From NCBI GenBank assembly GCA_003415625.1, contig PYIU01000011.1:199001-263000 (forward strand): 64,000 nt of DNA, given 5' to 3'. Made by a program: the position numbers and the translations under genes. The DNA is from Aquanectria penicillioides (lineage: Eukaryota > Ascomycota > Sordariomycetes > Hypocreales > Nectriaceae). The notes below the pieces were generated by a model, which saw only the letters and a program-made list of their open reading frames with translations, ran no database searches and was not told the DNA's origin. Positions 2,436-23,964 of the stretch are shown here, piece after piece; position 1 is the stretch's first letter, and each line of letters starts with the position of its first letter.

Positions 2436-4136
2436 CTAAGAGTTTTCCTTGTCGCCGTATACTACTGTAAACCCTTCCAAGGCCTCTAAAGCTTCCTGGC
2501 TCTCACGCCTGTAATTCGCAATACCACCCAAATAAACCAACTGTTCCCGTATCTTGCCTGGTATGTTCGCTCCCATGTACCATGAATCAGTTAGAGGCAT
2601 TAGAGTTTTGTCATTTGCGTCCTGGATTGCTTGCTTCCACTGCTCCTCGTACTCTCTCTGTGCTTCAATTGACTTGATTCCTTCTCTCTCGAGTTTCTGA
2701 AGTAGGCCAGCGAGCATGTCAACCTGGCTTTCGATAAACGCTGGCCCATTTGTGAACGCAGTTGGTGCTAGTCTGGCTGTCAGTGATGCAATCCAACAAA
2801 CGGCACAGGACTTACCTTGTGGTCCGTATATGATGAACAAATTCGGACATCCACTGCTGCATAGCCCCAAGTGAGTAAAGACACCGTCTTTCCACCTTTC
2901 TCTAAATGTCATTCCATCTGTACCATGAATGTTCATACTCGTCAAGCTGCCCGTCAATGCATCAAATCCTGTAGACATTACAACTGCATCAAATGCACGT
3001 TCCACACCGTCTTGACCTATAATGCCCTTTTCGGTAAACTCGCGGATGGGATTGGCTTTCAGGTCCACAATGTCAACATTATCTTGATCAAGACATTCGT
3101 AGTAATCTTGTTCTAGACTGCTCCTCTTGGTCCCGAAGGCGAATGGTGCCTTGTCTGGTACAAGAAACGCAGCCTTTGCAGGATTCTTGATCCTAGGCCG
3201 CGTCTTCTTTGCCCAAAACTCATACATGAGCTTGTTGGCTTTTGGGTCCACTAAAAAATCGCGGTAATTGGCTTGGTTGAAGTTGAATCCTCCCCGATTC
3301 CACAACTCCTCCCACAGCTCCTCTCGTTCTTGATCGCTCAAGTCCATTACAGAACCAGGCTGAGTGTCATATCCCAGGCCAGACTTTGAATTTTGGCAAT
3401 ACTCGAACATTCTTCGATAGGTGGATTTGTTGATTCGTTGCTCAAACTCCGTCATGGGACGCTGGAACATTGGTAAAGAGATGCTCGCTGTACGAATGTA
3501 TACGGTCAGATGATGCGCTTGCTTTGCTATTTCCTGAGTGCATTGTATTGCCGTTGCACCTGAGCCGACGATGGCGACGCGCTTGTTCTTCATATTTGCG
3601 TCGGCCTGCCATTGAGCCGAATGGATAAGCTGGCCCTTGAATTTATCCAAATTCTTGAAATCAGGATAGTGCGGCTTGTATGAGCTGCCACTTGCGCAAA
3701 TAAGGTATTTGCAAACGGCCTTGTAACCATTCTCGGTAGTCACAGTCCATCTGGCCAAGGATTCGTCGTATCTTGCCTCAACGACATTGGCAGAATAGGT
3801 GATGTCTTTGGACAGATTCAATGTCTCATCGACATGCTTGAAGTAGGCAACCAACTCTTCTCCGCTCGGGAATCTCTCAGACCAAGACCATTTCCGCCAG
3901 ACCTCAGGCATTGAGTATTGATAATATGGCATTTCAGAGTCGACACGTGCTCCAGGATACGTATTCCAATGCCAAACACCCCCAAGATTTGTGCCAGCCT
4001 CGAACACATGGATCTTGAATCCAAGACCACGAAGCTTGTACAAACTATACAATCCGCTGAAGCCTGCACCAATGACCAAAACATCGAGGTCTTTGACCCC
4101 ATGGTCTCCGTTCTGTAAAGGCGTGGTTGAATTCAT
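2436..4136 (-). CDS. Baeyer-Villiger monooxygenase 1 (flavin-dependent, class B)
   Basis: Two exons (4136-2816 and 2767-2436) give 550 residues, the usual length for cyclohexanone/cyclopentanone-type BVMOs. These enzymes use FAD, NADPH and O2 to insert oxygen beside a ketone carbonyl, giving an ester or lactone. Visible motifs are the FAD Rossmann GAGFSG (residues 23-28), GGVWHWNTYPGARVD, the BVMO fingerprint FKGQLIHSAQWQ (FxGxxxHxxxW, with Q where P or D is usual) and the NADPH motif GSGATA. A 48-bp intron (2768-2815) can be read through in frame, but removing it restores the conserved YGPQ-APTAFTNGP junction. A frame extends upstream to 4274, but the Met at 4136 is preferred because it puts the Rossmann motif near the N-terminus as in the family. 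The gene is divergent from the SDR gene, with a perfect TCGG-N6-CCGA site 226 bp upstream. The substrate is unknown. Confidence 0.92.
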   Translation of the reverse strand: MNSTTPLQNGDHGVKDLDVLVIGAGFSGLYSLYKLRGLGFKIHVFEAGTNLGGVWHWNTYPGARVDSEMPYYQYSMPEVWRKWSWSERFPSGEELVAYFKHVDETLNLSKDITYSANVVEARYDESLARWTVTTENGYKAVCKYLICASGSSYKPHYPDFKNLDKFKGQLIHSAQWQADANMKNKRVAIVGSGATAIQCTQEIAKQAHHLTVYIRTASISLPMFQRPMTEFEQRINKSTYRRMFEYCQNSKSGLGYDTQPGSVMDLSDQEREELWEELWNRGGFNFNQANYRDFLVDPKANKLMYEFWAKKTRPRIKNPAKAAFLVPDKAPFAFGTKRSSLEQDYYECLDQDNVDIVDLKANPIREFTEKGIIGQDGVERAFDAVVMSTGFDALTGSLTSMNIHGTDGMTFRERWKDGVFTHLGLCSSGCPNLFIIYGPQGKSCAVCWIASLTARLAPTAFTNGPAFIESQVDMLAGLLQKLEREGIKSIEAQREYEEQWKQAIQDANDKTLMPLTDSWYMGANIPGKIREQLVYLGGIANYRRESQEALEALEGFTVVYGDKENS

Positions 4137-4361: not shown

Positions 4362-4375
4362 TCGGCCCTTGCCGA
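4362..4375. promoter_or_regulatory. Putative regulator-binding palindrome TCGG-CCCTTG-CCGA
   Basis: Perfect TCGG-N6-CCGA (inner match CGGC-N4-GCCG), 226 bp upstream of the BVMO1 start. Inverted CGG triplets spaced by six bases are a known recognition geometry of Zn2Cys6 dimers (Ppr1/UaY class). The proposed binder is the regulator at 9144-11439. Confidence 0.6.
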
Positions 4376-4760
4376 AACGGCTAAGCAGCCTCTCATCCAT
4401 GACATAGCTATCCGCTATAACCGATGCTCCTCGGTTATAATGACATGTTGGAGGTTTTTGCGGAAATAACTTTGGAATCTCGGCATGGAAATGTTCGGGT
4501 CGAATAATACTACAGGCTGGTGCAAGGTGGCTCACGGTCTTCAACTGTCATGTCTACGGAGTTGACCTGATATGATGGCAGAGTCAAGTTACAAAAAGTC
4601 AGCATCTTTTTGGATCGCTAGAACAAGCCTAAGACGGTTATTCTTAGGCGACGCTTGTTTAAATTGATTGCCCTCGGTTTCTAAGGCGTCGGAAATAGAG
4701 CCGCCTTTGGTGGGCCTGCGAGTTCGTTGGTGGGTGGGTTAATTTTCGGGTCCCTCATTC

Positions 4761-4774
4761 CCGGCCCACGCCGA
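4761..4774. promoter_or_regulatory. Putative regulator-binding palindrome CCGG-CCCACG-CCGA
   Basis: A 7-of-8 match to TCGG-N6-CCGA (intact CGGC-N4-GCCG), 184 bp upstream of the SDR start. Confidence 0.5.
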
Positions 4775-4957
4775 TCTATCTAAAGAATCTTGTTCGCTTC
4801 TAAATTCCGTGACTATTTCATTAAACACTGATGAATTGTTTTGTGTTCATCATTTAACAGTAGAAATCATATTATCTGATCCAGAGAACTCGAGTAGCTT
4901 TGTAATTTGCCGAAACCTCATTCTCTTTCTTTGTGCCAAGAGTGTACTCGTATAACC

Positions 4958-6195
4958 ATGACTTCCAACCCGAGTCTCAATTTTCCGCAAGGAATGCTGC
5001 GAGGTAATGATAACCCAACTCTGTCCTGTGGACTCACTGACGGTCTATACTAGGGCAAACGGCGATAATCACCGGCGCGGCCCAAGGTATTGGAGCTGAG
5101 ACTGCCGCGATCCTCGCACGCGAAGGGTGCAAAGTGGTGATTGCAGACTTGGATGCTGGTAGTGTTTTCTAAGATAGCAGAGTCACTCTGGTGCTGATAC
5201 GGAATAGAGAAAGCGGAGAAGACCGCCCAAGCGATCAATTCTGATGGAGGATCCGCGATTGCTGTTGCCGGTGACATTACAAATAACGAAACAATCAGCA
5301 CTCTAGTACAGAAAACCGTCGAATTCAGCGGTGGAAAGATTCACATCGTCATAAACAATGCAGGATACGCATGGGATGACCCGATTCAGAAGATACAAGA
5401 TAAACAATGGGGTAAGAATTCTTCTTGTCTTGGCAGGTTATTTTCTTCTAACGGACTAGACACCATTATTACACTGCATAACACGGCACCATTCAGACTG
5501 ATTCGGGCTGTAGCTCCATATTTCATGGTCAAGGACGGCGAACCCCGATCAATCATCAATATTTCGTCTACCTCTGGGATTTACGGCAACGCTGGGCAGG
5601 CCAGCTACGCCTTAGCTAAAGCTGGATTGGTAGGACTGACTAAAACAGTGGCCCAAGAATGGGGGCCAGAGTATGGCGTGAGAGCCAACAGTATGAATTC
5701 ATCGGCTGCATTAATTTGGCTGAGACTAATCGTGTACCAACTAGCTCTGGCTTTCGGGGCCATCAAAACTAGGCTCACACAAGCTCCAGAAGGCGAGTAT
5801 GTCACGAGACCAGATGGCACCAAGCATGCAGTTGGGTTTCATGGCGGTTATGATGAGGAAGAAAAATGGTCAGTGTTCTCGAGGTTCTAGGGGTTGTGTC
5901 TGGAGCAAAGATTCACCTTTGTAGGGTTGGAGATATCCCTCTTCGACGGATTGGATCCCCCACCGACGCTGGGCGAGCAATCTTGGCAGTCGTCTCGCCA
6001 TTGTTCTCATACGTGACTGGACAGGTACGCCAACAAGTTCTTTTCTTTACGCACTCTTTCGTTTATTTAATCGTCATTCTATGAGTGTACATGCTGACGT
6101 CATATTAACAGACAATCATGGTAAGAACAACCCATTAGTTGCTGATACGGGTTAATAACTAGTAAAAGGTCACCGGTGGTCGGGGTGGTATGTAG
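4958..6195 (+). CDS. Short-chain dehydrogenase/reductase (probable alcohol/ketone dehydrogenase)
   Basis: Eight exons (4958-5003, 5054-5158, 5208-5411, 5460-5690, 5745-5868, 5925-6024, 6112-6120, 6169-6195) encode 281 residues. Classical SDR features are the cofactor motif TGAAQGIG, an Asp at the end of beta-2 (VVIADLDA, favouring NAD), the NNAG-type motif, the catalytic Ser in NISSTSG, SYALAKAG (YxxxK) and the C-terminal VTGG. Every junction keeps frame and rebuilds a conserved motif. Exon 7 is only 9 nt (Thr-Ile-Met) and is needed to connect SYVTGQ to VTGGRGG. Next to two BVMOs, the likely role is oxidation of a secondary alcohol to the ketone that a BVMO then attacks, by analogy with cyclohexanol dehydrogenase. 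The substrate is unknown. Confidence 0.88.
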
Positions 6196-6333
6196 ATGAC
6201 TGAAGATAGCTTATGATGGAGGATCATTAGTGCAAAGTGGTCATAGCTAGTTCGATAGCTACGATGAATTTTTAATTTTTTAAACATGAATAAAGAAAAA
6301 TAGTGTTGTATATTTGTGTAAATAAGTTACTAT

Positions 6334-8080
6334 CTAGCTGCTTGCACGCACTGAAGCTTGCTCTCCCACCCCGTTAGTTGCTGGAGGTGGGGAAAGAATC
6401 GTGTTGGCCCAGGCTGTCTTGCTCTCGGTCTCAAGCCAACCAGCCCAGGTAGGGACTCCTCCAAAGTAGAACAATGGCTTGATAGCCTTGCCCGGGATGT
6501 TGGCGCCAACGAACCATGCACCAGATGCCTTGGCGGATTCTACAAACAGAGTAGCCTCGAAGGCCTCCTCGAGATGATGAGACCATGCGTTAGCAGCCTT
6601 CTCCGTTACGTTGATCTTGGAAAGACCGTGTTTCTTCATATGCTCAAGTGTCTTGCCGATCCATTTCAGTTCAATGTCTACGACCACAGGCATATTCCCA
6701 AATGGAATGTGAGGGCCACAGACGACGAACATGTTGGGAAATTCGGGAACAAGGACTCCAGCGAACGTTTCAACGCTCTTTGACCAATATTTCTTGAGAG
6801 ATTTGCCTTGACTACCTCTCACGTCCATCTCGCTGAGTGCACCAGTAGCCGCATCAAACCCCAAGGCGAAGATGATCATGTCAAACTCGTAGTCACCTCC
6901 CGAGCTGGTACGGATTCCGTTTTCGTAAATATCAAGGTCGTCTTGGCTTATGTCAACCAACTTAACATTTTCTCGATTGAATGCTTCGTAATAGAAGTGT
7001 CCACAAGGCGGGCGCTTGGAAAGAAAAGGATGCTTTGGGCAGAGCTTTTCCGCCGTCTCTTGGTCGCGGACAATGGCGCGAATCTTTTGGCGAAGATACT
7101 CTGAGGCAATGTCATTGGATTCTTGATTCGTAAATAAATCGTCCAAGGTTTCGAATTGGACATGGAAGCCACCAGACTCCCAGCCAGAATCCAATAATTG
7201 TCTAATCTTATCGGCGTCTGCAAAATCCTTGACAGTTTTCCCCGACGGCGTCATCGCTAGGCCATACGGATGCACGCTTGCACGATTCCAAGTATCATCA
7301 TAGCCGTGTTTAATTTCCGTAGCTTGGTGCGCATCGATGGTGTAATTTCGTCCTGGCAGCACGAAATTTGGTGTTCGTTGAAATACGGTCAACTCCTTCA
7401 CACTCGGTGCAATTTTGGGAATGATCTGAACGCCTGTGGCGCCAGTGCCGACAATTGCAACACGCTTTCCGAGGAAATCAATTTTCTTCTTCGGCCACTT
7501 TGATGCCTGATACCACTCGCCTGTAAATGATTTGAGCCCAGAGAAAGGAGGATCCTTTGCGAGTGATAATGGCCCAGTAGCAGGGAAGAAGTATTGACAA
7601 GTTGTGGACATTCCATCCGAATCAGTGATTGTCCACATGTTTTGTTCGTCATTGTAATGTGCCGACTCAACACGAGTATCAAATTGCACATGACGACGTA
7701 GGTCGAATCGGTCTAGTTTCGGAGCATCAGCAAGCGGAACCACGCGCTCGCTTTATCTTGGGGAGCGAGACGAGTGAAGAGCGGAATAACTAACCAACAA
7801 CACGACTCAGATACTGCTGAACTTCTTCTTGAGAAGGATAACGCTCGCTGTAGTTCCATTCATCTTTTGATCCCGACGCAAAGTTCATGGTGTAGACCCA
7901 TGCTTCGCTGTCGGTTCGGGCCCCTGGATAACGATTCCAATACCAAGCTCCACCAACATCTGAACCAGCCTCGAAGCACTTGACCGTCAGGCCGAGCCTA
8001 TCAAGCTCCCACAACGACCGAATGCCACCGAAGCCTGTGCCGACAACGACGGCATCATACTTTGGAACCTTGTTAGACAT
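6334..8080 (-). CDS. Baeyer-Villiger monooxygenase 2, with an altered fingerprint residue
   Basis: Two exons (8080-7795 and 7712-6334, intron 82 bp) give 554 residues. The splice joins YLSRVV to DRFDLRRHV as in the family. Visible motifs are FAD-binding GTGFGG near the N-terminus, [20 protein letters not shown]-binding GTGATG, and the late-domain ATG-type segment ALGFDAATG. The BVMO fingerprint reads [12 protein letters not shown]: the normally conserved His is Gln, while the terminal WP is intact. In characterised BVMOs this His helps couple domain movement and NADPH use, so activity or cofactor handling may differ. The gene converges on the SDR and is divergent from the zinc-cluster regulator, with a perfect TCGG-N6-CCGA site 205 bp upstream. 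It is only moderately similar to BVMO1, so a second substrate or a later step is plausible. Confidence 0.9.
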
Positions 8081-8259
8081 GATGGACTATTCGAAAATTT
8101 GACAATGAAAAATGATGAGTAATGGCAGGGCTTGGAAGTGTCATGATTCTTAATTCGTCAGGATTTATGAGAATTTCATAGTCAACACGGATGGGTATTG
8201 CACCAGATGTTACGGAACATCTTCGTCTCGTTGTGTGATACCACGAGAGGTGAGCGCCA

Positions 8260-8273
8260 TCGGCCTGGCCCGC
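8260..8273. promoter_or_regulatory. Putative regulator site TCGG-CCTGGC-CCGC
   Basis: A 7-of-8 match to TCGG-N6-CCGA, 180 bp upstream of BVMO2 and 12 bp from the perfect copy at 8285. Confidence 0.4.
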
Positions 8274-8284
8274 GAATTGTCTAC

Positions 8285-8298
8285 TCGGCATGAGCCGA
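8285..8298. promoter_or_regulatory. Putative regulator-binding palindrome TCGG-CATGAG-CCGA
   Basis: Perfect TCGG-N6-CCGA in the promoter shared by BVMO2 and the zinc-cluster regulator. A related CGG-N5-CCG arrangement follows at about 8308-8321. Confidence 0.6.
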
Positions 8299-8437
8299 CA
8301 GAGATACCCGGCACAGCCGAGATAGGGGATACCTACCGGCACGGATACACCTCAATGGCAGTCTCTGGCATTTCCGACGGTACGCAGAAATTCTAATCTT
8401 CAACATTTAGGACTGTTGATTTCTGATACGGAAAATT

Positions 8438-8532
8438 GGAGGTAAACCTTAACTGCTACACCAAAAGGTCTACCTGTGCCACGGTTAAGAGTAACACAAG
8501 ATATTAAGGTCTATAAGGCACTGATTCGAATC
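8438..8532 (+). repeat. 95-bp dispersed repeat, copy 1 (inverted partner at 60644-60738)
   Basis: This segment matches the reverse complement of 60644-60738 at 88 of 95 positions. Read in one frame (PKGLPVPRL and onward to KALI), the three substitutions inside that stretch are synonymous. That suggests a relic of a once-coding segment rather than a structural element. It lies in the BVMO2/regulator intergenic region. Confidence 0.75.
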
Positions 8533-8929
8533 AATTTCCATGTGAAGGAAGTCACAACCATAAGAGATTCGTAGTTATCATCTTGAAGGTTTTATGAGGC
8601 GGGTTTAATTTTAGATCTCAGACACGACCTACCCTGACATCGTTTGATGCGATGTTCTCAATCTTACAGCATGTATCCCCGTAAGACAATTATGGCTGGC
8701 ACTGCTAAAATAGCATTTATTTAATGTGAGCCATGTCACTGTGGATAAATATCTATGCACGATTGGACACCTGGAAGCGTTCATGTCATATCCAACGCCT
8801 TCACTCAAAAGCTCAAGCCGTAGTTGTGCTCTGGGCGCCAAGGACTCACACTGAATGATAATACCATGCGTCTACACATTAGTTTGCCACTTGTTGCTCA
8901 TTCCGGGCCAATAGGATCCAGTCTAGTGT

Positions 8930-8943
8930 GCGGCGTTCGCCGA
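8930..8943. promoter_or_regulatory. Putative regulator site GCGG-CGTTCG-CCGA
   Basis: A 7-of-8 match (intact CGGC-N4-GCCG), 201 bp upstream of the regulator start. A near-copy with a 7-base spacer, TCGG-N7-CCGA, follows at 8960-8974. These suggest autoregulation. Confidence 0.45.
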
Positions 8944-9143
8944 TATCCCACACACTTCATCGGCCCTCGGCCGAAAAGTTGAGCCGCTTTTGGATACCCC
9001 GCAGATCCCCACAAATTGGACAAATCTGGGGTACTGCAGCATGCCGAGATCAATTTCTGGAGCTTGACCCAGGACCATTGCAACCTCGTGTAGAATTAAT
9101 TCAACATTGAACTTCTTTCGAGTCTTTTTTGGTAGATTTTCCA

Positions 9144-11439
9144 ATGGTGGATCGCTCAAAAACTTCAACGGGTACGTTTCATCGTGCCTCTATTGCATGC
9201 CAGAGTTGTCGACTGCGCAAGGTGAAGGTAAGCGATTCGTCTCCGGAGTTTGTTGTTTTTGTGAAGCATTCTCAGCAAATTGTCTTAGTGTGATGTCCAG
9301 TCTGTCCCATCAGACGAAGGGTGCAGTCCATGTCGACGGGCCGGACAGGAATGCTTGCTGGACCCTTTATCAGATGGAAGAAGGTTTGTTGTTTATGAAT
9401 GACAATGAGAAACCATCGCTAAACATTGAGACGCAGATCTGTCAGTCGAAAAGTCGTCAACAAATTGCAGCAGCGTATTGAAACGCTGGAGGCTCTCAAC
9501 AGGAGAGCTGCTGACCGATCAGCGTGGGGACCCAATGAGGACGATTCTGATGCTGCAACAGATATATCCGTACTACCAGGTGTTACGAGGCAAGTTTTTC
9601 CTTTTGGCAACGAGAAAATAGAATGGACCGTTAAGTCAGACGTTCGCTTGACTGACACCGGCAAACAGCACCAGAGATATGAATACTACAGTGGCTCGCA
9701 GTAGAAGCGACGCTACCAGCTCGGTCGCCTCGAAACGGTATGGAAATTCTCGTTCAGTTATGCCTCCATCAACTTCAGTTAATGAGAATTCCCCGGGAAG
9801 GGGCCGAGTCGAATCCCCGAGCTTTTATGGCGCGACGTCTCACCCTCATGTTACATCACCTGGCGAGGAAGCTCATGCTTCTGTTCCCAAGGAGGTTGAC
9901 GCCGTCGGTATCGATCTTGATCCAACCTCCCCCCGATTGCGTGACCATCTATTTCAATCCTTTTTCAAATACCAGACGCTTTGGGTCGATATCGTGAACA
10001 AGGAATCGTTTTTTACCGCTCGGTCGAATGGCAGCAATTCCCAATGGTACTCCAAGTTTCTTGAAAATAGTATATTAGCTTGCGGTGCGCGTTTGAGCAC
10101 CTCAAAGTCCGTCCGTGCCTTGGGCTTTAAATATTGTGACTGGGCGAAGGATGAGATATTGAAAGCCATGTCGGAGCCGACGCCTGCCAACCTCCAAGGG
10201 TTTCTTCTTCTAAGCGAATTCGAAGTGACTCAGGGCAATGATCGCCCAGGCTGGATGTTTTGTGGTATGTGCTGCAGAGATTGCCTTCATCTGTCGTCTT
10301 TGCTTACAATGACAGGCGTTGCTTGTCGGATGCTATCCGACCTTGGCTTACATGAGCTTACGAGCCTAGTGAGTGCTTCCACACACAATCAAGAGTCAAC
10401 AAAACAAAGCGACCTTGCCTACGCTCTTCTGTCCGCTTGTGTAGTCTACGAAGGGGTTTGGACGTTATATCTTGGTAGACCAAGCTCAATCCCAAAGTCG
10501 ATTATGAATATTGTCGCTGCACGCTGCAGAGACAGGCGAAAATCAGATTCGCCATGGCTCAATGCCTGGGTGGGACTTTGCCTCCCGATGGCCGAAATAT
10601 CTCACGTACTCAATGAACAACCCACGGTTGAGTCCGATAGATCGGCCTCACTAAGAGAGCTCTTTAAAGAGGTGGAAGAATGGTATGAATGCCTTCCTTC
10701 AGAGCTGAAATACAACGACAATCTTTTGACCAACATGGACCTGGCTGGATATGGCTTGCACACCCAGTACTGCAAACTCCAAATTCTCCTGCGACGAGCG
10801 CTGGCAAATCCTTCAAAGACAAAAAAGAGGCGGCATTCTGAAATTTCGCGCAACAGCAGCCTTCTGTCATCCTGCGATGAGTCCCACGACATCATCTACC
10901 AATATGCACTCCGCACAGCTCGTTTAGTTGTAACCTATCGAGAAGCCTTTGGAATGGAAGAAATTCCCTCCATCATGCTCGACAACGCTGTTGTTGCTGC
11001 TACCACAATGATCGGGTATCTTGATAAACCAGACAACCTGAGCCAAACATCTCATCCAACAGTTTGGCTTCGTCAACTCGTCAAGAGCATGGAATCTGTC
11101 CAACTGCACTTCCCGATTGTCGGACGCATGCTCGATTCGCTCAAGCAAATTTGTGGCAGTGGCCCGCTCCGCAGTATCTTCTCTGCTCCATATCATGAAT
11201 CATCTGCTCCTTCTACTCTTGAGATGCCCGATTTAGGACAATTTATGGATCCTAGACCCATACCGAATGTCATAGAAGACACCACGACAGCGTTGGCAAC
11301 TGGATCTGGCATGATTTGGGATTGCTTCGACTCGGAAATTGCACTTGATATCCTCTCTACCGATGGATTTACCGGGTCCGCTCTTGATCTCCCTCCCCCA
11401 GAATCATTGATCTCTAGCCTCGCCCAAGCTGTACCTTAA
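9144..11439 (+). CDS. Zn2Cys6 fungal transcription factor, candidate cluster regulator
   Basis: Five exons (9144-9227, 9289-9383, 9431-9579, 9692-10264, 10316-11439) give 674 residues. The zinc cluster is complete at C19-x2-C22-x6-C29-x10-C40-x2-C43-x6-C50, split by an intron before C29 (at K28). A basic linker and a short leucine-rich coiled segment (KLQQRIETLEALN) follow, typical of dimerising Gal4-class factors. The long remainder matches the fungal-specific regulatory domain, for example FEVTQGNDRPGWMFCG-VACRMLSDLGLHE across the last intron. The intron 9580-9691 is chosen because it restores frame and has a good branch site and TACTACAG acceptor. It is less certain than the others. The gene sits in the middle of the oxidative cluster, has CGG-N6-CCG sites in its own promoter, and is the natural candidate to bind the TCGG-N6-CCGA sites. 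Confidence 0.88.
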
Positions 11440-12144
11440 GTGCCATACTTCACCAAGTCAATGGTCTTGTACTCTGCGATCGTTCAATGCAATCTGTGAT
11501 TGACAGCAGAAAGCTTGACTACGCCACGAATCTAGATGGTGATGGGGGTGTTCGGGTTGGGTATATCGATGGGTTTTACTCAGACGGTGTGGTTTGGGTT
11601 CGTAAATTTACTTCTTGAAGCCTTTGTCGATGGTGGTTAACGGTCCGCAGTTATGCAGTTGTAATGTGTATGAATATCAGCTATAGTAAAGGGAGCCGGA
11701 GTTATCACTGATTGAACAGCTATTAGCACATGATGGTTTTAGAAAACCTGAAAGTCTCTTTTTCTACTAGGCCGTTGACAATGCAACAAATCTACGTATT
11801 AAATTGGAGATATCCAATCATTTTCTTCGTGGTTCTTGATGTAGTTGAATGTTTCACTGAATATTTGTAGAGCACTTATTTATTGAATAGATTGACGTTG
11901 AAAATAATACGCACTGGATTTACTTGGGCATTGGTATACTGACCATGAGTTGGTGTTCCCTATTGGACTGCGAAATGCAGAATATTTTAAGCGGTTATAC
12001 TTTTGATGAAATACATATACACTTGACGTGTCAATTTGTCCTTCTGTCTGTCTGTTTCTGTGAACAATGCAGTTCAAAGCTGGATACACTGCTGAAAGTG
12101 GTGAAGTTCGATGGTAAGACCACTCCAAGCATCAGCTCAACTGT
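11440..12144. other. Convergent intergenic region, regulator/FAD monooxygenase
   Basis: These are the 3' flanks of two convergent genes. They are AT-rich, and no coding, repeat or RNA feature is recognised. Confidence 0.5.
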
Positions 12145-14780
12145 CTAGCAAAGACCTTGAGCAAAGCAGGTTTTCGCAAGCACACCTTCTCTCCAGTACC
12201 ATACCGCCATCATGGTGGCTCCAGGGCCAGCAGCGAGACAACCAACCGCGACCAGTGCTGATAGTTTCCCAATGTCGACAGCTGTGCGACCCATCCGCTT
12301 CAAATCCCAGGCAGCCATGCACAACCACGCATATGTTGCAATCTCAAACCCCCAGAAATCAGCCAAGAAAAGAGATTTCAGGCCCTCTCCAAACTCCTTG
12401 GGTTGCGGGCTAAAGTCTGGCCAGAACACAGATTTAAAACTGATGTCGGGCGAAAACTGGATCTTGGCCAGGCAATAAATATGAAACGCAAATCCAAGTG
12501 CACCGGTGAAGACGTAGAGCTTCTTTAGATATGGAATATCTGGGAACTCTTGCTTTGCTATTTTCGGAACCTGCTGTAGAGATTGTTTTTTGGAGTAAAG
12601 GTATCCAAGTGTGGTGCAGATGAGCGGAACAAACATTGGAGACGGCTGCCAGAGAGCCTCAAAAATTTGGACCAGGTTCGGATCCTTCCAGGGAGAGAAC
12701 ATGAGAATTGTAGGAAGGATGTAGCCAATTGTAACCGCCGACATCAAAGACTTTGCGAATTGAATCGGAACTTCTCTGTTGAGTGGCCACCAGTAGGTTT
12801 CGGGTTCTGAGATGTGCGTATACACGGCGTAGTAAATTGGCATATAGATTCCAATGCCAGCCCTTTGGACAAGGGTGAACCAGATGGTAATCCTGAAATC
12901 TCAGTCAACGATTCAAATCAGAAAGGATTACGTCAATACTTACAGTGATAACGGCGTCAACATGTTTCGTTTTCGATATGCCTCGACCGACCATACCGTG
13001 ATTGGTTGAATGAGCATTCCGAGGAAGTACATTTGTATCATCCCGAAATCACGCTCCCAATTGGTCAGGCCGGGGATGAATATTGTTGCCAAAAACGCCA
13101 AGTAGTCGTCAATAAGCTTGATCCCGATGTAGGTGCGCTTGAGAGTGAAATCACGGTCATACGAGAAGACCCCATCCTTCAAGATGGCTCCCAAGTACTC
13201 TCCGAGCTCATAGTGAGCTGACCAGACCCACATTCCATAATGGACGAGCGCAGCGATGAGCAAGTAGAATCCAATAAAATACCACTTCATCATACCCCTT
13301 GGAGCAGGTTCACTAAGAAGCTCATCCTTGTAAGGTATGAGTCTTGAGAGTGGACTGAATTTGGGATTGTCTAGCTTTTCTGCGAGGGGCATGTTTCGAG
13401 AAAAGTTGAAAGTGACGTCTTCGGTATCGGTGAGGGGGAGCAAATAGAAAGCTGCCAGTTCATGGAGGGGCGTATCGAGTAGCTCAGTGCGCTGTTGCTC
13501 GTGTGAATGCTCCTTGAGGCTCGTGGCTCTTGCCTGTCGAACGTCTTGGGTTGTTGCAAATATATGCTCGATCTGTTCCAAGGAAGGCTTTGCTCCAGGT
13601 GATTTTGCCAGTACCTTGCGAAGCGTGTTGACCAAGACAGCGGCAGATTCAAAGCAAGCGTTACCACCGTGACCTGCAATGGGATGGAACTAGGAATAAT
13701 GAGTATCATGCGTGATGGGAAGATGGAACAGTGTACGGACCTTGTGTGCCGAGTCGCCAATAGTGATGATACGCTTGTAGTACCACTTCCTGAAGACATA
13801 TTCCTGCAACGGCACCAACACAGACGTAATTCTCTTTTCAATTATGCCTTTGAACTTCAGATTCGGAGTGATGTCGTCATTTTCTCGTTCAGCAAACAAC
13901 TTCATCTGGTCTTCGTCCGTGTAGGATGGGATATCCTCGCCATACGCACGACGCGCCAATTTGAAGAAGTAGAACCAGTAAACACGGCCTTCAGGACCGC
14001 CATTGACGATATATGACTCGTGCTTCCTGAATACGGAATTTGAGGCACCCGGCTCGATGCCATCGCAAGGGTTTGAGATTCCAAAAATGCACCCATAGTC
14101 GCAGGGGACCGCTAACACAGGTCAGTGCTGATAAATAGTATTTAGTCTCCCAACTTACAGCGATGCTCGTCAGATGGAATCCACCCCGGCATTTCGTTGT
14201 TCGCAATCCGCCACATTTCATCTCTCACAGTGCTGTGAATTCCATCCGCACCGACGAGGAGATCACCATGATAAGTGGAGCCATCGGCGGTTTTTACGAC
14301 GACGCCATCATCCGTCATCTGGACCTTCTGAACACGTTTCTTCGTAAGGATCTTTGTTTTATCCTTGATATTGTCATACAACACTTGCAGCACCATTTGA
14401 CGATCTAAGAAGGTAATCGGATAGCCATGCCTAGATATCATAAGACTTGTGTGTCCCCTTGACTCAGAACAGGCTTACCTTTCATGCATAGAGTGATTCA
14501 TCCCTCGGAACTCGCAGATTATCTTTCCCGTATCATCGCGAAAGTGGAATGAATCCAAAGGAGGACACAGCTCCAGGATCTTCTGGTACAGGCCCAGTTG
14601 GTCCAATATCCGGTTGCCGTGCGGCAATATTCCAATGCTAGCACCAACTTGAGGTGCGATATCCCCGTAGGCCTCGAGAACGATGAAGTCAATATCGTAT
14701 AGCTGTAGCATATTGGCAAGTGTGAGGCCGGTAATGCTGCCGCCGCCAATCACGACCTTGAAGTCGCTTTTGGCACCCAT
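12145..14780 (-). CDS. FAD-dependent monooxygenase fused to a C-terminal polytopic membrane domain
   Basis: Five exons (14780-14479, 14430-14159, 14111-13741, 13689-12944, 12892-12145) give 812 residues with frame kept across four introns of 47-51 bp. The first half is a class A (PHBH-like, PaxM-type) flavin monooxygenase: GGGSITG near the N-terminus, the DG motif [13 protein letters not shown], and the GD motif [18 protein letters not shown] rebuilt across intron 3. The second half (about residues 430-800) has roughly eight hydrophobic segments rich in Trp, Tyr and Gly and lacks flavoenzyme motifs. Single-chain fusions of this kind occur in fungal genomes, and the membrane half might be a cyclase-like or anchoring module, but I do not assign it a reaction. 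A perfect TCGG-N6-CCGA lies 173 bp upstream, in the promoter shared with the hydrolase. It may hydroxylate or epoxidise a hydrophobic substrate at a membrane. Confidence 0.85.
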
Positions 14781-14952
14781 TTTGCTGTTTTGTCGCCAAT
14801 TGTTAATAAAAAAGTGAATGATTGATGCTGTTATGTGATGAATGTAGGGAATGCAAGCTTATATCATCTCGTTGAGTGAGAAAGCTCCGGCTTCAACGTC
14901 CAACGCTTGACGTGCCGCATTTTGCAACTTGGGAGGATCCTCGAATTTCGGT

Positions 14953-14966
14953 TCGGGTTACTCCGA
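14953..14966. promoter_or_regulatory. Putative regulator-binding palindrome TCGG-GTTACT-CCGA
   Basis: Perfect TCGG-N6-CCGA in the 547-bp divergent promoter (14781-15327) between the FAD monooxygenase and the hydrolase. Many further CGG/CCG triplets with other spacings lie at 15040-15190. Confidence 0.6.
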
Positions 14967-15327
14967 TCTGTTTCGGGATTTTGCGCTGCACTCAAAACGT
15001 CCTGTAAGGCGGCGAGGGTCAAACAAAGTTCAATAACGCTAATTCGGATGGCATCTTGTAGATTCGGAGATGGAAACCGAGCGGCGGAAATCCGGACCGA
15101 GAAGATTGCAACGGACAAGCAAGCCATAAATCCACCGACTCGGTACTCACGCATCCAAATACGGAAACGAAATTCAGCCGCCGGCGATATTACGGGAATT
15201 TTCCAGTTGGCTCTTGAACCCAGCCAAGGGAAGACTGACGCTGAAATACGCCCACTCCAACCTGAATGCCAAATATCACCATCACTAGTGACGACTTGAA
15301 CTTTGAGACATTCACATCATAATTACA

Positions 15328-16326
15328 ATGGAAAGCTTTCAGCGTAAATCTCTTGTAACGCGGCGCTCGCTTACGTATAGATACTTTGTCTCGCCTTCCG
15401 GTCTATCTACCAAGCAGCATCCGACTCTGTTCTTCATTCATGGCTTTCCTGACTCGGCGCATCTCTGGTCAGACGTGATTTCCAGACTCGATGCACTCCC
15501 AAACAAGATAATTGTACCGGATTGCCTAGGATATGCCGGCACAGACAAACCCAAAGACACATCGTTGTATGCGTACAAGGGCCAAGCTGATGACCTGGTG
15601 GATATTTTGAAGGCAGAGAACTCCGAGTTTGTGATTATTATTGGACATGACTGGGGCAGCGCGCTAACCCAGCGCACGTATCTTCACCACCGTAAACTAT
15701 TCAGTGGTGTTGTACTTCTCAATACCGGTTACATGGTTCCATCAGATCAGTCTTTTGACCTCGCCGCCGTCAATGAACTCACAGAAAAGATATTGGGCTA
15801 CCCTCAATTTTCGTATTGGGAGTTTTTCACAGCACCCAATGCGGCGGAGATTATAGATGATAATCTTGAGAGAATGTGGCAGGTGTTACACGGCGATGTC
15901 AATGACTGGATGAAAAAGATGTTTTGTGTTCCAAACGCAATGCATGACTATTTGCTGGGGCACGAGGAGGTACCATTGAAGTCATACGCTAAACAGTCAG
16001 TGTGGAAGGATGCCTTTATCCAGCAATTTCAGACCGATGGATTCGCGTCGGCCTTGCAAATGTACCATGCAACTGCTTCGAACATACAGACAGTATCGGA
16101 TGCTGCTATACTCAAGGATAATCTGGCGATCACGGTTCCAACATTGTTCGTTCTCTGTACCATGGATGCGGTATGTGTGCCAGAAATGATGGCCCCCGCG
16201 AAGGATCAAGGCCTCTTGCCTGATTTAACAGAGGTTATTATGGAATGTGGGCATTGGTCACCGATGGAGAGGCCAGATGAAATTGCAGCGCATATTCGAG
16301 ACTTCTTGGCCAGCAAATTTGCATAG
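15328..16326 (+). CDS. Alpha/beta hydrolase, epoxide-hydrolase-like
   Basis: An intronless gene of 332 residues. The oxyanion motif HGFPD is at residues 38-42. The nucleophile motif is GHDWGS, with Asp108 as the predicted nucleophile, as in soluble epoxide hydrolases and haloalkane dehalogenases rather than Ser esterases. The catalytic His is predicted at 309 (ECGHWSPMERP). It probably opens an epoxide or, in this cluster, possibly a lactone. The Asp nucleophile argues for epoxide chemistry, the BVMO context for lactone chemistry, and the sequence alone cannot decide. It is divergent from the FAD monooxygenase, which could supply an epoxide. The predicted location is cytosolic, since no signal peptide is seen. 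Confidence 0.88.
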   Translation: MESFQRKSLVTRRSLTYRYFVSPSGLSTKQHPTLFFIHGFPDSAHLWSDVISRLDALPNKIIVPDCLGYAGTDKPKDTSLYAYKGQADDLVDILKAENSEFVIIIGHDWGSALTQRTYLHHRKLFSGVVLLNTGYMVPSDQSFDLAAVNELTEKILGYPQFSYWEFFTAPNAAEIIDDNLERMWQVLHGDVNDWMKKMFCVPNAMHDYLLGHEEVPLKSYAKQSVWKDAFIQQFQTDGFASALQMYHATASNIQTVSDAAILKDNLAITVPTLFVLCTMDAVCVPEMMAPAKDQGLLPDLTEVIMECGHWSPMERPDEIAAHIRDFLASKFA

Positions 16327-16678
16327 CATTAGGCGGCTTTAATATCGATGATTAAAGTTCTAACCGTTGCCGCTGCACTATGAGATACAGTAACCGAATA
16401 CCAGTTTCCAAATGCTATAAACTAAAACTCATCATGTGAATTCCAATAGAGCACAACGTGTTCCCAGCTGTAGTGTTAACCGTGAATTGTAGTGGAGTAT
16501 TCGTGCCCCGTCTCAACTTGGAACGTGTGTCAGTGAAATGACGCTGAGTCCTGAACCACCACTAAACTATGACAAAGAATTGGGTCTTTCACGTTATTTT
16601 ATGTTCATCTAATTTAAAGATATCAAGACAGGGATAAAATGGTTTATTTGCTCGGGGAATTCTATAACTGCGTTGTAG
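16327..16678. other. Convergent intergenic region, hydrolase/aldehyde dehydrogenase
   Basis: Terminal flanks of two convergent genes. No other feature is seen. Confidence 0.5.
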
Positions 16679-18201
16679 CTAGGTAGAGGCCATGTTGATC
16701 AGGACAGTCTTCGGCTCAGTATACAACCTCAAGGCATACTCTCCGAATTCCCGCCCGATCCCACTTTGCTTTTTACCACCAAAAGGCGTCTGCATATTCT
16801 GCAAACTAACACAATTGACACCGACAACACCTGATTCCAGAGCTGATGAGACGCGTAGAGCTCGTGTGATGTCCCGGGTAAAGACACCAGACATTAAGCC
16901 AAATTCGGTGTCGTTGGCCAACTTCAAGACCTCCTCTTCTGTCTCAAATGTCTTAATAATTCCAACTGGGCCAAAGATCTCGTTGCGGTAGATTTCGGCG
17001 TCATTCTTGGGATTTAGGAACAAGGTTGGTGTCATATAGCATCCCGTCTTGCCGTGTTGGACACCCCCAACCACCAGCTCTGCCTCGGCTTTCCCTCGCT
17101 CAACCATCTTCTTAACGCGCTCGAGCTGTGATTCATCAACCATAGGTCCAAGTCTGATGCTTGGGTCTTGAGGGTCTCCCAAGTCATTCGCTGCATCCTC
17201 CATTCTTCTCTTATATCCTTGGATGAACTGGTCTGCAATGGCTTTCTGGACATAGACTCTAGATGGAGCCACGCAAAGCTGACCACTGCGAGTCAAGATA
17301 CCATTGACAGTCCATGTCAGAGCATTTTCAATATTTGCGTCGTCGAAAACAACCGCTGGACTCTTTCCACCGAGCTCTAGAGTGACTCGTTTCAGGTTAG
17401 TTTGAGCAGCGGCCTGCTGAATCTTTTTCCCTGTCGCTACCGAGCCGGTGAAGCTAATCTTTCGAATCTTCATGTGTTCTGCTAGAAGCGCACCGGTAGA
17501 TCCCGGTCCTGTGATGACTTGTATCACGCCAGGGGGGAAACCGGCCTTGTCAAATAAAGATGCAACAGCCAGAGACCCGAGAGGTGTCTTTTCGCTGGGT
17601 TTGACAATCATGACGTTGCCCGTAGCGAGCGCTGGTGCAGCCTTGAGAAAAAAGGTTGCAAGAGGTGCGTTGAATGGGTTAACAGCGGCGCAGACACCGA
17701 GTGGCTCATGTCGCACCAACTTGACGAATCCTGCAACATAGCTGCATTAGATATGAACAGGAGAACATTTCGATTCTACGTACCATCATCCGCAGGGAAA
17801 TAATCTCCTTTGTGTTTATCAGTCCACCCTGCGTAGTATAGTACACAATTTCTGATATAATTGCGTTCGCGAACTGGTGCGAGAGATATTGGGATTCCCG
17901 AAGTGAGTGAGTCAAGTGTTAGAATTGACATGAGTTCTTCATCAAGCAATGTGGCTAGTTTGAGAAGGCAGTCTGTCCGTTGGATGGCGGTAAATCGACT
18001 CCATGGCCCATGGAAGGCATCCTCTGCATGTTTGACAGCGGCGTCGACATCTGCAGGCCCAGCGATTGGGACCTTGTCTGTAACAAGCGTATTATCTTTG
18101 GGGTTTTTGAGGCTATATGTTTCACCGCTCTGCGCGGCGACGTATTGGCCGTTCAAGAACAGTTTCGTGAACGACTCTGGCTCTAAGGAATTGGTAGACA
18201 T
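16679..18201 (-). CDS. Aldehyde dehydrogenase (NAD(P)+-dependent)
   Basis: Two exons (18201-17784 and 17730-16679, intron 53 bp) give 489 residues, normal for the ALDH superfamily. Motifs seen are the N-terminal LFLNGQYVAA, PWN-type VNPFNAP after the intron, the cofactor-loop segment FTGSVATGKKI, the general-base Glu in LELGGKSP, the catalytic Cys in SGQLCVAPSRV, and the late EIFGPV. It oxidises an aldehyde to the acid. In the proposed pathway it would take the omega-aldehyde acid made by the neighbouring zinc alcohol dehydrogenase to a dicarboxylate, as ChnE does in bacterial cyclohexanol breakdown. It shares a divergent promoter with that dehydrogenase. Confidence 0.92.
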
Positions 18202-18494
18202 AGTTACGTCTGGGAGGGTGATCTTTCATTCAAGCTTCAATATGGCAAAGAAATCAAAAGGAATCGAGCGAGAATTTGACCCTGACTAGTACATCTCAAA
18301 TCAAGACTGAGGACCATAGCCGAGACTGCCTGCTCTCGAAACTGCGCAAGTTGGTCGGCCCGAGTGTCCCAAATCCGATTTAACCGGGTAAATCACAGTG
18401 GCCATTAGTCTCGGATATGCATTACCTCTAAATTAGCGGTTCTGCTAGCTTTAGCGACGCCTCGGTGTGGGCGGGGAATTCACACTCATGATGC

Positions 18495-18508
18495 TCGGCA
18501 AAGGCCGG
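18495..18508. promoter_or_regulatory. Putative regulator site TCGG-CAAAGG-CCGG
   Basis: A 7-of-8 match (intact CGG-N6-CCG), 122-135 bp upstream of the zinc alcohol dehydrogenase. Confidence 0.45.
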
Positions 18509-18526
18509 CAGGGCGAGTAATCGATC

Positions 18527-18540
18527 TCGGCCCATGCCGA
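18527..18540. promoter_or_regulatory. Putative regulator-binding palindrome TCGG-CCCATG-CCGA
   Basis: Perfect TCGG-N6-CCGA in the divergent promoter 18202-18629, 90-103 bp upstream of the alcohol dehydrogenase. It is nearly identical to the 4362 copy (TCGGCCCTTGCCGA). Confidence 0.6.
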
Positions 18541-18629: not shown

Positions 18630-19706
18630 ATGCCTACAGCAATGACGGACTTGATGGACGTTTGGGCTCTGACGGAATGGAATCAGCCTCTCCAGAAGAT
18701 TCGCCAACCCATTCCAACGCCCATAGGAACCGAGATTCTGCTGAGAGTCACCCACGCTGGTGTTTGTCATTCAGATCTTCACACTGCTGAAGGCTTCTAT
18801 GACATCGGTGGTGGCCGGAGATTTTACGTCAAAGACCGTGGTATCAAACTACCTGCTGCATTGGGGCATGAAATCCTTGGAGAAGTCGCAGCATTAGGAC
18901 CAGACGCAGAGTCAATCCCAATAGGGTCTCGGCAAATTGTGTATCCATGGCTCGGCTGCGGTGACTGCACGCGCTGCAGTCAGGAAGAAGATAATTTATG
19001 TGCCGCGCAAAGAGGGCTTGGCACGCTGCGAAATGGCGGGTTTGCTGAGTACGTGGTGGTGCCGCATTCAAAGTATCTATTTGATCTCGGCGATCTTGAT
19101 CCTGCCGTTGCATGCACTTTTGGATGTTCAGGAATCACAACGCTCAGCGCAGTCAGTAAAGTCATGCCTCTGCCGCCAGATGAGCCGGTTCTCTTGATCG
19201 GAGCCGGAGGTCTGGGTCTCGCGGCGATTGCAGTGCTCAGATCTTTTGGGCACAAATTCATCGTCTCCGCAGACATCAACGACGACAAGTTATCAGATGC
19301 CATCGCAGCTGGCGCATCGAAGACGGTAAATACCTCTGGCTCTTCCGCAGCGAAGGGCGTCCTTGCAGCTACAAACGGACCCGTCATCGCCGTCATCGAT
19401 TTTGTCAACAGCTCAGCGACCGCTAGCTTGGTCAACAATCTGGTAGGCAAAGGAGCCAAGTGGGTACAAGTTGGCGTCATGGGTGGTTCTATTGAACTAT
19501 CCCTCGTGTCCAATATTTTCAAAGGGTTGACTATTTGTTCAAACATTACGGGAAATTTGGAAGATTTGCGTAGAGTTATACAACTGGCAAAGGAAGGACA
19601 GCTTAGTCCTTTGAGAGTTCAAAAGATGAACTGGGACTCAGTGAATGAAGCAATGGATCTCCTCAAGGCCGGGAAAGCTTCTGGTAGAATCGTCCTTGTC
19701 AAGTAG
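18630..19706 (+). CDS. Zinc-dependent medium-chain alcohol dehydrogenase
   Basis: An intronless gene of 358 residues. The catalytic zinc ligands are visible in GVCHSDLH and GHEILGEV. The structural zinc lobe has four cysteines, CGDCTRC...NLC. The Rossmann motif is GAGGLGLAA, followed by an acidic residue in SADINDDK, which favours NAD over NADP and so oxidation. The closest familiar type is the alcohol dehydrogenase/propanol-preferring group. In the cluster it would oxidise a primary omega-hydroxy group freed by lactone opening, as ChnD does in bacteria. That role is inferred from position, not from sequence. Confidence 0.92.
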   Translation: MPTAMTDLMDVWALTEWNQPLQKIRQPIPTPIGTEILLRVTHAGVCHSDLHTAEGFYDIGGGRRFYVKDRGIKLPAALGHEILGEVAALGPDAESIPIGSRQIVYPWLGCGDCTRCSQEEDNLCAAQRGLGTLRNGGFAEYVVVPHSKYLFDLGDLDPAVACTFGCSGITTLSAVSKVMPLPPDEPVLLIGAGGLGLAAIAVLRSFGHKFIVSADINDDKLSDAIAAGASKTVNTSGSSAAKGVLAATNGPVIAVIDFVNSSATASLVNNLVGKGAKWVQVGVMGGSIELSLVSNIFKGLTICSNITGNLEDLRRVIQLAKEGQLSPLRVQKMNWDSVNEAMDLLKAGKASGRIVLVK

Positions 19707-21272: not shown

Positions 21273-23964
21273 TTATACCGTCTCCATAATTCTTCTGTTT
21301 TCGTCATTATGAACGCTCTGTCCGCTATCTTTTGCAGATATCCATTGTTCGGCAATGTTGTCTTTCTCAGCCTTCGTTGAAAATAATTCTCTTGTATTTT
21401 CCCACCACTTCTTCCCACTTTTTCTCCTCGCAAGGCCGAGCTTATCTTCACGGGCGGGGCTTGATTCTCTTTCTGAGGTCTTGATCTTTATGATTTTGCC
21501 AATGAGTTCAATCATTCTTCCCTTCCGTTTACTCACCGTTACTGTCCTCTCATTGTGCGCTTCGGATCGAGCCGATGACCCGAAGAGGCCAATGAACGCA
21601 ATTAGATAAGTCAGTCCAGATACTATCACTGTGGCCACCCAAAAGCATGTTTCAGTTGTAGCACCTGACTTGGAATCGAAAAGGCCAGTGCCGAAAAATG
21701 TCTACAAAGAGATTGTCGGTTAAGCTGCTTGTGAGAGGTAGAGTTGAGACTTACTGCGACGAATGTTGGGGGCAAAAAGAAGATGGTGACAGTTGTAAAT
21801 ACAAAGAGGTACTTATTAAGGGTTCGACTCTTCTGGGCCTCCATAATTGACTTTTGTGCCTCAGTAATCGACTGCACACTGAGAAGCTATGATGATGTGT
21901 AAATATCTCCTCCAGCTGGCGATTCTGATCAACCTACTCCGTCCATGAGGCTTTTCACGTCGCTTATTGTACGCTCAAATTTCTCCAAGAGTCTATCTGA
22001 GGCTTCGCGTTGGTTCCTTTTCACAATGTCCCAATTGTGTCGTAGGATCCTGTTGGTGTCTTCGGCGTGTGGGTACGATGCCTCGAACAACCTGTCTAAG
22101 AGAATTGGGTTCTGAATAGTGGACGAGAAATCTTCCAGATAGCGTGGAGCGGTTCGGATCGATGTGACAAAGATACCAAGCATCTTCAGAACCTTGAAGT
22201 ATAAAACGGAACTATCAGATTGAGCACCAAGGACAAGATGTTTCAGACCCTGCGGATCTTCTAAAACATCAAGCTTGTCAAATTAGCATCTATTGTCCTT
22301 CAGTTTATTTAAGCCCGAAAAGACCTACCGGAACGGATATTTTGGTGTCAATCTTGTCTATTGTTTCATTCCAGTCCCTCTCCCACTCGTCAATGAAGGA
22401 GCAGATTTGAAGCTGAAGCATTGATACCCCACTATGGAGTCCAGCTGGGAGTATTCCATACTTGCGCCATGGGTACTGACGTTTGGCAATATTGATGTCG
22501 AATCCAGGAGCGCTCTTCCAAATGTTTCTATCATCTCGTCTCTTGTCAATCATTGAAATTAACGAGAAATGGCCACTGGCTCGTTCTAGGGGGAGAATGT
22601 TGAGCGCTGTAGAGTATCGTCTTTCGGTCAATCGAAGATGGGCGTCCGTGTAGAATCCCTTGAAAGTCACATAAGACCTCTTACACTTTAATCCACCAGG
22701 CAAACCATGTTTACTCTCCGATTTCTGGTTGAAATCGCCGATAACAACAAATGATCGCATGTAGTGCATGAAAGTACCAAAATCAACTACCCGGGGGCCT
22801 TTTGGTGGCAGGGTAAACCTGTGTCGTGGGCTCTGGAAGTGGGTCAGCCCGCATCTTTCGTCAACACCTCTCTCCCTCCATTCTGCAATATGACCATCCA
22901 GAAACTCTGGACCACCTCTATTCATGCTTGATGTGTCTTCCCCGAGACAAATGATAGCTGCTACGCTCTGGAAATCAACTATACCGGGGGACAGGTCGAT
23001 GGATATTTGGCTTATTCTTCTAGTTAGTGGCGCTTCACAATGAGAAGCAATACACACCATATAATGCCGCAGACATCCTTTTCCCTCACCAATTTTGGAA
23101 CCTCCTATATCGATTATTTGAGCCTTAATATTTGTAGGTACCATGGTTTGAGAAATATATCACCTTCAATTCTGTATCAATGCATTCATCATAGTCGAAA
23201 GGATCGTAGAGAGAGTCGCTGTTGCGAGCGGCGAAGCGTACACGGTGTTCAATCCCAGCTTCTTCATCACGGTAACGCGGATTCCATGAGTTTGGCCACC
23301 AAGACTCAATCTGGTCTATTTGTGTTGCAGTAGCGCCCGGTTCAACCATATACGTTGGGTTCCAGCATGAGGAATAGAAGGTTGCTTCAGTAACCCACTT
23401 GCGAAAGATCTCGCGTGCACATTCAAGATTTGGCCTTTGTTCCCAAGTCATCTGTCGTTCTCTCCGGAAAAATGAAGGATCAAGGGGTTTCGATCCGTGG
23501 GTCGGTTTATCTGCGGCATCATGGGTTTCAATCGGCGATGTACCACAGGGTACCAGACTCTCCAAAAATTCTAACCCAAGAGAACTATCCTCTGGAGCCA
23601 CCGAAACTGCTGCTGGGTCCGCCCACGTCTCATTCTTACTCGACCATAGATTTTGGGAGATTTTATGTATGTCGTACATGAAACCGAACTTCATCTCTAG
23701 CATCTTTACGATGTATTGTTGGTCTTTGACAATCTGATTGAGACTCTGCACTGTCTGTACATTTAAGAGGCATGGTGGAGTCAGTTGGTCTGGAGAGCAA
23801 CGGAGAGTCACATTTTCAGACTGTTTTTCTTCAATTCGAGATTTTTCCTTGTCGTCATTGAACTCGTTATCATTAGTCGAGGGCGTCAGTGCTATAGACC
23901 CTGTAGCGGCGTTTGAATCGGAACTAAAGTTGCAATTGGCGGTCATGATGAACACAGTGAACAC
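21273..23964 (-). CDS. CorA-like fungal membrane protein (divalent-cation-transporter fold, no GMN signature)
   Basis: Five exons (23964-23164, 23123-22329, 22249-21938, 21886-21755, 21701-21273), all introns in phase 0, give 822 residues. The first intron (40 bp) is short and least certain. The N-terminal ~550 residues are a soluble domain typical of fungus-specific CorA-like proteins (for example DTSSMNRGGPEF). A coiled region (SLMDGLLSVQSITEAQKS) then leads into two C-terminal membrane helices (KYLFVFTTVTIFFLPPTFVA and VATVIVSGLTYLIAFIGLF) and a basic tail. In true CorA magnesium channels the first helix is followed by GMN. Here the position reads FFGTGLF, so ion selectivity is probably altered or lost. 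The family is large and of unknown role in fungi. Confidence 0.72.

Follow-up and report, generated by a model that had tools for sequence, protein, structure and literature searches.

A TCGG-N6-CCGA palindrome shared by the four divergent promoters of a putative cyclic-monoterpene catabolic cluster in Aquanectria penicillioides

A 64,000-nucleotide stretch of the Aquanectria penicillioides genome (assembly GCA_003415625.1, contig PYIU01000011.1, forward-strand positions 199,001 to 263,000; hereafter the window), which belongs to a genome of 53.76 Mb in 13 contigs, contains eight genes arranged as four divergent pairs, and each of the four promoters between the paired genes holds exactly one perfect copy of the palindrome TCGG-N6-CCGA. 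The pairs are a Baeyer-Villiger monooxygenase (BVMO1) with an SDR-family dehydrogenase, a second, BVMO-like flavoenzyme (BVMO2) with a Zn2Cys6 regulator, a flavin adenine dinucleotide (FAD) monooxygenase with a hydrolase, and an aldehyde dehydrogenase (ALDH) with a zinc alcohol dehydrogenase (Zn-ADH). We propose, with a probability of roughly 0.7, that these sites are the operators of a pathway-specific regulon, in which the regulator encoded within the cluster binds them and co-induces an eight-gene cyclic-monoterpene catabolic cluster. The shared switch site in four two-way promoters would be a new example of a familiar form of gene control, with the regulator of the cluster probably as its reader, and the eight genes look like a route for degrading a cyclic compound of plant origin, limonene being one example.

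Gene models were built from open frames, splice-site inspection and Pfam matches, and the promoter stretches analysed measured 823, 1062, 547 and 428 bp (2,860 bp in total); the first stretch runs two bases into the start codon of the SDR gene, and the base immediately ahead of the BVMO2 start is missing from the second. An earlier note on this DNA had placed perfect copies at 4362, 8285, 14953 and 18527, one per divergent promoter, and copies matching seven of the eight fixed bases at 4761, 8260, 8930 and 18495. All were found there, with exactly one perfect copy in each of the four stretches (Table 1). Calculated from the coordinates, the perfect sites lie 226, 205, 173 and 90 bp from the nearest ATG, the second of these distances being that from the 8285 site to the BVMO2 ATG, with the regulator ATG 846 bp away. 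Two more 7-of-8 copies occur in the promoters, at 4411 and 8364, and in both the mismatch destroys a CGG triplet. The inverted arrangement CGG-N6-CCG is present eight times in the promoters, compared with no more than two occurrences at every other spacing from 0 to 20. A relative with a seven-base gap, TCGG-N7-CCGA, is found at 8960-8974 in the regulator promoter. The window holds a fifth perfect copy, at 21562, inside a minus-strand open frame (21273-21701) and outside the cluster promoters.

The improbable feature of these sites is their placement, not their density. The bare motif occurs 706 times in the genome, or once per 76 kb, and a Poisson estimate gives about 0.66 groups of four within 14.2 kb for the genome as a whole, such that clustering alone is not significant. 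The earlier argument that four copies in about 14 kb lie far above chance was therefore too strong with regard to density, while its other part, the placement of a copy in every promoter, is indeed improbable: the Poisson probability of at least one copy in each of the four promoters is 6e-9. In 100 dinucleotide shuffles of the window, the mean number of perfect copies was 0.81, and five were never obtained. When all 5,376 inverted 4-mer dyads (256 x 21) were tested blind, TCGG-N6-CCGA was the only one present in all four promoters, and none of 400 dinucleotide-preserving shuffled promoter sets shared any dyad. When 1,500 length-matched quartets were drawn from the genomic sequence near the cluster, coding parts included, five shared a dyad, built from AT-rich words (AAAA, TTTA, AATG, TATT, ATAT).

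For comparison with the surroundings, control DNA was taken from 60 kb on either side together with the rest of the window, and coding sequence was masked crudely by open frames of at least 120 residues, which left, beyond the cluster, 52 noncoding-like runs of at least 400 bp that add up to 83.7 kb of the 184 kb. These runs contained no perfect copy and 13 7-of-8 copies, versus four and six, respectively, in the 2.86 kb of promoter sequence.

The observation that most copies share the longer core CGGC-N4-GCCG was borne out, as this core is carried by six of the eight promoter CGG-N6-CCG copies. It occurs eight times in the 184 kb, and six of these occurrences lie in three of the four cluster promoters. 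The extended form TCGGC-N4-GCCGA is found at 59 places genome-wide, three of them in the cluster; a triple within the cluster span is expected 0.007 times genome-wide, a value to be read with the core itself having been noticed from the cluster copies. The pattern TCGGCYCWTGCCGA, written from three cluster copies, has four matches in 53.8 Mb, of which three lie in cluster promoters, and another 93 places lie one mismatch away (97 minus the four exact). The count of four is descriptive only, as the cluster copies themselves dictated the choice of degenerate letters. The fourth copy, at C1:1830421, was considered as an extra target and rejected, as it sits within overlapping open frames, of which the plus-strand frame (L009) reads by eye like an iron alcohol dehydrogenase. 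It is conceivable, though on balance rather doubtful, that TCGGCYCWTGCCGA is a near-private operator and that the regulator, with an extended site for each promoter pair, switches only this locus; an operator code would then be described for the first time in a fungal cluster for cyclic-monoterpene catabolism, and it would be kept along with the regulator in other ascomycete classes.

The regulator contains a Zn2Cys6 domain (PF00172, 29.7 bits, cut-off 21) with six visible cysteines and a fungal-specific middle domain (PF04082, 42.4 bits, cut-off 23), and a heptad-like stretch is seen by eye after the zinc cluster. The best Protein Data Bank matches of its DNA-binding domain are Ppr1 (1pyi, E 6.5e-4), Gal4 (2.5e-3) and Leu3 (4.8e-3); the ranking of Ppr1 first agrees with the N6 site, and with its small margin over Gal4 is suggestive, not decisive. 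The sites of Ppr1 from Saccharomyces cerevisiae and UaY from Aspergillus nidulans are TCGG-N6-CCGA. The Ppr1/UaY geometry of Zn2Cys6 dimers, to which the palindrome had been likened, is supported by the excess of the six-base spacing, and the narrow first rank of Ppr1 among solved matches agrees with it. Common to these systems are a Zn2Cys6 protein and inverted CGG half-sites with a six-base gap and flanking T/A, a motif found here in all four promoters, whereas the target pathway differs and most copies here add the C-N4-G core. The comparison concerns the likeness of the site and of the DNA-binding match (for Ppr1), and orthology is not claimed.

Compared with five homologues from Nectriaceae (P0001-P0005), the regulator shows 88-93% identity in its DNA-binding domain plus linker and 70-76% in the middle region. 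Over the full set of 21 homologues, 18 have a DNA-binding part more conserved than the middle region. This difference in conservation suggests that the DNA target is conserved among close relatives, and less clearly among distant ones. The sequence LDPLSDGRR is kept among close regulator homologues with small changes, and is followed in one of them by a two-residue insertion. The site that had been reported in the regulator's own promoter is the perfect copy at 8285, and together with the nearer 7-of-8 site at 8930 it makes autoregulation of the regulator gene plausible. Elsewhere in the genome, a regulator paralogue on C9 (G000:C9:435001-455000, L029-L030; 34-40% in two pieces) has BVMO-like neighbours. 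The same region also has an SDR-like frame and, by eye, one bZIP-like and two cyclase-like frames.

The closest homologues of the regulator and the BVMOs are mostly proteins of Ilyonectria, Thelonectria and Dactylonectria. Linkage of the genes in other fungi was scored when the longest contigs for both proteins were of equal size, with sizes copied by hand. At least 22 of 53 regulator homologues are linked in this way to a BVMO1 or BVMO2 homologue, and at least nine to one of each; the former number is a lower bound because the BVMO homologue lists hold only the best 120 of 121 and the best 120 of 173. One of the 22, from Capronia, is paired with a 51% BVMO1 relative, and the remaining 31 of the 53 had no equal-sized contig among the BVMO matches listed. 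Consecutive regulator/BVMO2 locus tags are present in Plenodomus, Fusarium torreyae, Dothideomycetes NU459, Neocosmospora mangrovei, Sporothrix bragantina and Fusarium lateritium. In two of these, F. torreyae and NU459, BVMO1 comes next after one skipped number, as in this cluster. In Grosmannia clavigera, homologues of the regulator (52%), BVMO1 (76%) and BVMO2 (66%) share one contig size and count as linked by this measure. No relatives were found for the regulator homologue P0001 among bacterial and archaeal contigs, or for the BVMO1 homologue P0174 among viral contigs.

The enzyme families of the cluster point to a probable catabolic pathway. The fingerprint of type I Baeyer-Villiger monooxygenases is FxGxxxHxxxW, which BVMO1 carries as FKGQLIHSAQW; its histidine is present in 33 of the 42 homologues examined, the other nine giving no match to the pattern. 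The best solved matches of BVMO1 are 5j7x, an entry for a putative dimethylaniline monooxygenase, and two Baeyer-Villiger monooxygenases, and nearly the whole chain of BVMO2 aligns with cyclohexanone monooxygenase (E 1.3e-120). In the FAD monooxygenase, a putative epoxidase, the C-terminal part of about 360 residues with its four hydrophobic stretches has no Pfam match of its own. The top solved matches of the hydrolase are epoxide hydrolases, and the protein contains GHDWG, which we take to be its Asp-nucleophile motif. The original study of limonene in G. clavigera (Wang et al. 2014) reportedly found that an epoxide hydrolase is needed.

These families fit the order epoxide-diol-ketone-lactone. 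The same order of chemistry is seen in the limonene-1,2-epoxide pathway of Rhodococcus erythropolis DCL14, which proceeds by epoxidation, epoxide hydrolysis, dehydrogenation and oxidation to a lactone (PMC4097962, excerpt). The Rhodococcus system differs in being bacterial, and the cluster hydrolase in being of the alpha/beta-hydrolase type. The bacterial limonene-1,2-epoxide hydrolase has another fold. In G. clavigera, two BVMOs (CMQ_6956 and CMQ_7007) are implicated in limonene detoxification (PMC8120277, excerpt), and a gene cluster responds specifically to terpenes (PMC3680317, excerpt). The fit of the enzyme families to the Rhodococcus route, along with the linkage and the BVMO role in G. 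clavigera, makes a limonene-type substrate plausible; other cyclic ketones or terpenoids are possible substrates.

In the mechanism we propose, a homodimer of the in-cluster Zn2Cys6 protein would bind inverted CGG half-sites six bases apart, with a preference for TCGGC-N4-GCCGA. Each divergent promoter would be served by its one perfect site, aided by weaker companions in three of the four, and each site would switch on both flanking genes, in which case four sites would control all eight genes, the regulator's own included. Catabolism would begin with epoxidation by the FAD monooxygenase, followed by epoxide opening by the hydrolase and alcohol oxidation by the SDR or the ADH, and then by ring insertion to the lactone by the BVMOs and aldehyde oxidation by ALDH. 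Systems that pair a pathway-specific Zn2Cys6 regulator with an N6 palindrome repeated across clustered divergent promoters are of a familiar kind; among the open-licence papers listed by literature searches, none described this cluster, its operator or its probable pathway, or reported a regulator or site for a cluster of this sort.

Beyond the abundance of the bare motif in the genome, several points weigh against the proposed regulon. The C-N4-G core is missing from the 14953 site. The promoters also contain direct TCGG repeats, three each at spacings 11 and 16, along with some everted pairs, and arrangements besides the inverted N6 are therefore conceivable. No TCGG-N6-CCGA occurs in the 20 kb around the C9 regulator paralogue, so the site is not general for the wider regulator family. 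The three exceptions to the better conservation of the DNA-binding part are the G. clavigera homologue (66% for both parts), P0033 (equal at 45%) and P0032 (43% versus 46%). In BVMO2, glutamine stands where the fingerprint has histidine (a reading by eye for the query), and all 36 homologues examined have glutamine there too, for which reason the protein is termed BVMO-like; BVMO2 and its homologues, many of them annotated as cyclohexanone monooxygenase, possibly form a distinct catalytic subclass. The linked G. clavigera homologues may be proteins other than CMQ_6956 and CMQ_7007, and the excerpts of PMC8120277 and PMC3680317 name no operator or regulator for the pathway of that fungus. The limonene-type substrate is deduced from families only, and binding, activation, autoregulation and the inducer are likewise matters that we infer.

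Among other explanations, the one that survives best, although it is improbable, is that the sites are real and bound by another Zn2Cys6 protein of the same geometry, such as a UaY/Ppr1-type purine/pyrimidine regulator, in which case the cluster would belong to a wider nutrient regulon. UaY and Ppr1 themselves use this N6 geometry, and with 706 copies in the genome the bare motif may be used by other regulators. The longer core, however, is rare in the genome and has three of its few copies in the cluster, a dedicated regulator lies within the cluster and is BVMO-linked in other fungi, and the noncoding-like DNA around the cluster is free of perfect copies. As to how close the two known regulators are, the title of a UaY paper, as cited in PMC5746545, proposes a relationship with PPR1.

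Slightly less likely again is that the regulator chiefly recognises CGG half-sites that stand alone or in other arrangements, with the N6 palindromes a by-product of their crowding. The promoters contain 45 TCGG/CCGA half-sites in 2.86 kb (15.7 per kb versus 4.7 per kb in the noncoding-like runs, a 3.3-fold excess), and the direct repeats and everted pairs are consistent with such reading. Given these half-site numbers, however, the probability of an N6 palindrome in each promoter is 3.7e-6, or 2.4e-4 after allowing for 63 choices of spacing and arrangement, and no other inverted spacing approaches the count of CGG-N6-CCG. That a common 8-base palindrome was simply picked out after the fact is very unlikely: its genome-wide count and the 0.66 four-copy clusters expected would allow it, but it has a copy in every divergent promoter, is the sole inverted dyad so placed, and forms a TCGGC-N4-GCCGA triple that is rarely expected, even if the core was noticed from the copies themselves.

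If correct, the proposed regulon would identify the regulator and the operator of a Baeyer-Villiger-type catabolic cluster and define its extent as exactly these eight genes; many ascomycetes show linkage between the regulator and the BVMOs of such a cluster. According to an excerpt of PMC8120277 (2021), G. clavigera is the sole fungus from which enzymes of terpenoid detoxification have been characterised. The motif is compact and can be tested at once in relatives.

Table 1 Genes of the cluster and TCGG-N6-CCGA sites in its divergent promoters (positions in the window).
Feature	Position	Strand	Remarks
BVMO1, type I Baeyer-Villiger monooxygenase	2436..4136	-	small in-frame intron placed by eye; several relatives named 'cyclopentanone monooxygenase'
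Perfect site TCGGCCCTTGCCGA	4362..4375	.	BVMO1/SDR promoter; flanks extend to TTCGG-N6-CCGAA
7-of-8 site	4761..4774	.	CGGC-N4-GCCG core present
SDR-family dehydrogenase	4958..6195	+	several introns, model by eye
BVMO2, Baeyer-Villiger-monooxygenase-like flavoenzyme	6334..8080	-	one intron; several relatives named 'cyclohexanone monooxygenase'
7-of-8 site	8260..8273	.	CGG-N6-CCG
Perfect site TCGGCATGAGCCGA	8285..8298	.	BVMO2/regulator promoter
7-of-8 site	8930..8943	.	CGGC-N4-GCCG core; CGG-N6-CCG copy closest to regulator ATG
Zn2Cys6 regulator with Fungal_trans domain	9144..11439	+	introns 9228-9288 and 9384 to 9430 or 9436; further introns only partly resolved
FAD_binding_3 monooxygenase	12145..14780	-	four hydrophobic stretches in C-terminal part (residues 452-795)
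Perfect site TCGGGTTACTCCGA	14953..14966	.	FAD monooxygenase/hydrolase promoter; without C-N4-G extension
Alpha/beta hydrolase, epoxide hydrolase type	15328..16326	+	GHDWG
Aldehyde dehydrogenase (ALDH)	16679..18201	-	one intron
7-of-8 site	18495..18508	.	CGGC-N4-GCCG core present
Perfect site TCGGCCCATGCCGA	18527..18540	.	ALDH/ADH promoter
Zinc alcohol dehydrogenase (Zn-ADH)	18630..19706	+	Pfam

Adjoining the cluster, at 853-2085 on the minus strand, is a gene for a shikimate kinase and type I dehydroquinase-like protein (Pfam), which we take to resemble the quinate repressors of the QutR type; the interval between this gene and BVMO1 contains no perfect TCGG-N6-CCGA. Further along the window, at 25497-27870 on the plus strand, open frames resemble, by eye only, a Trk-type potassium transporter.

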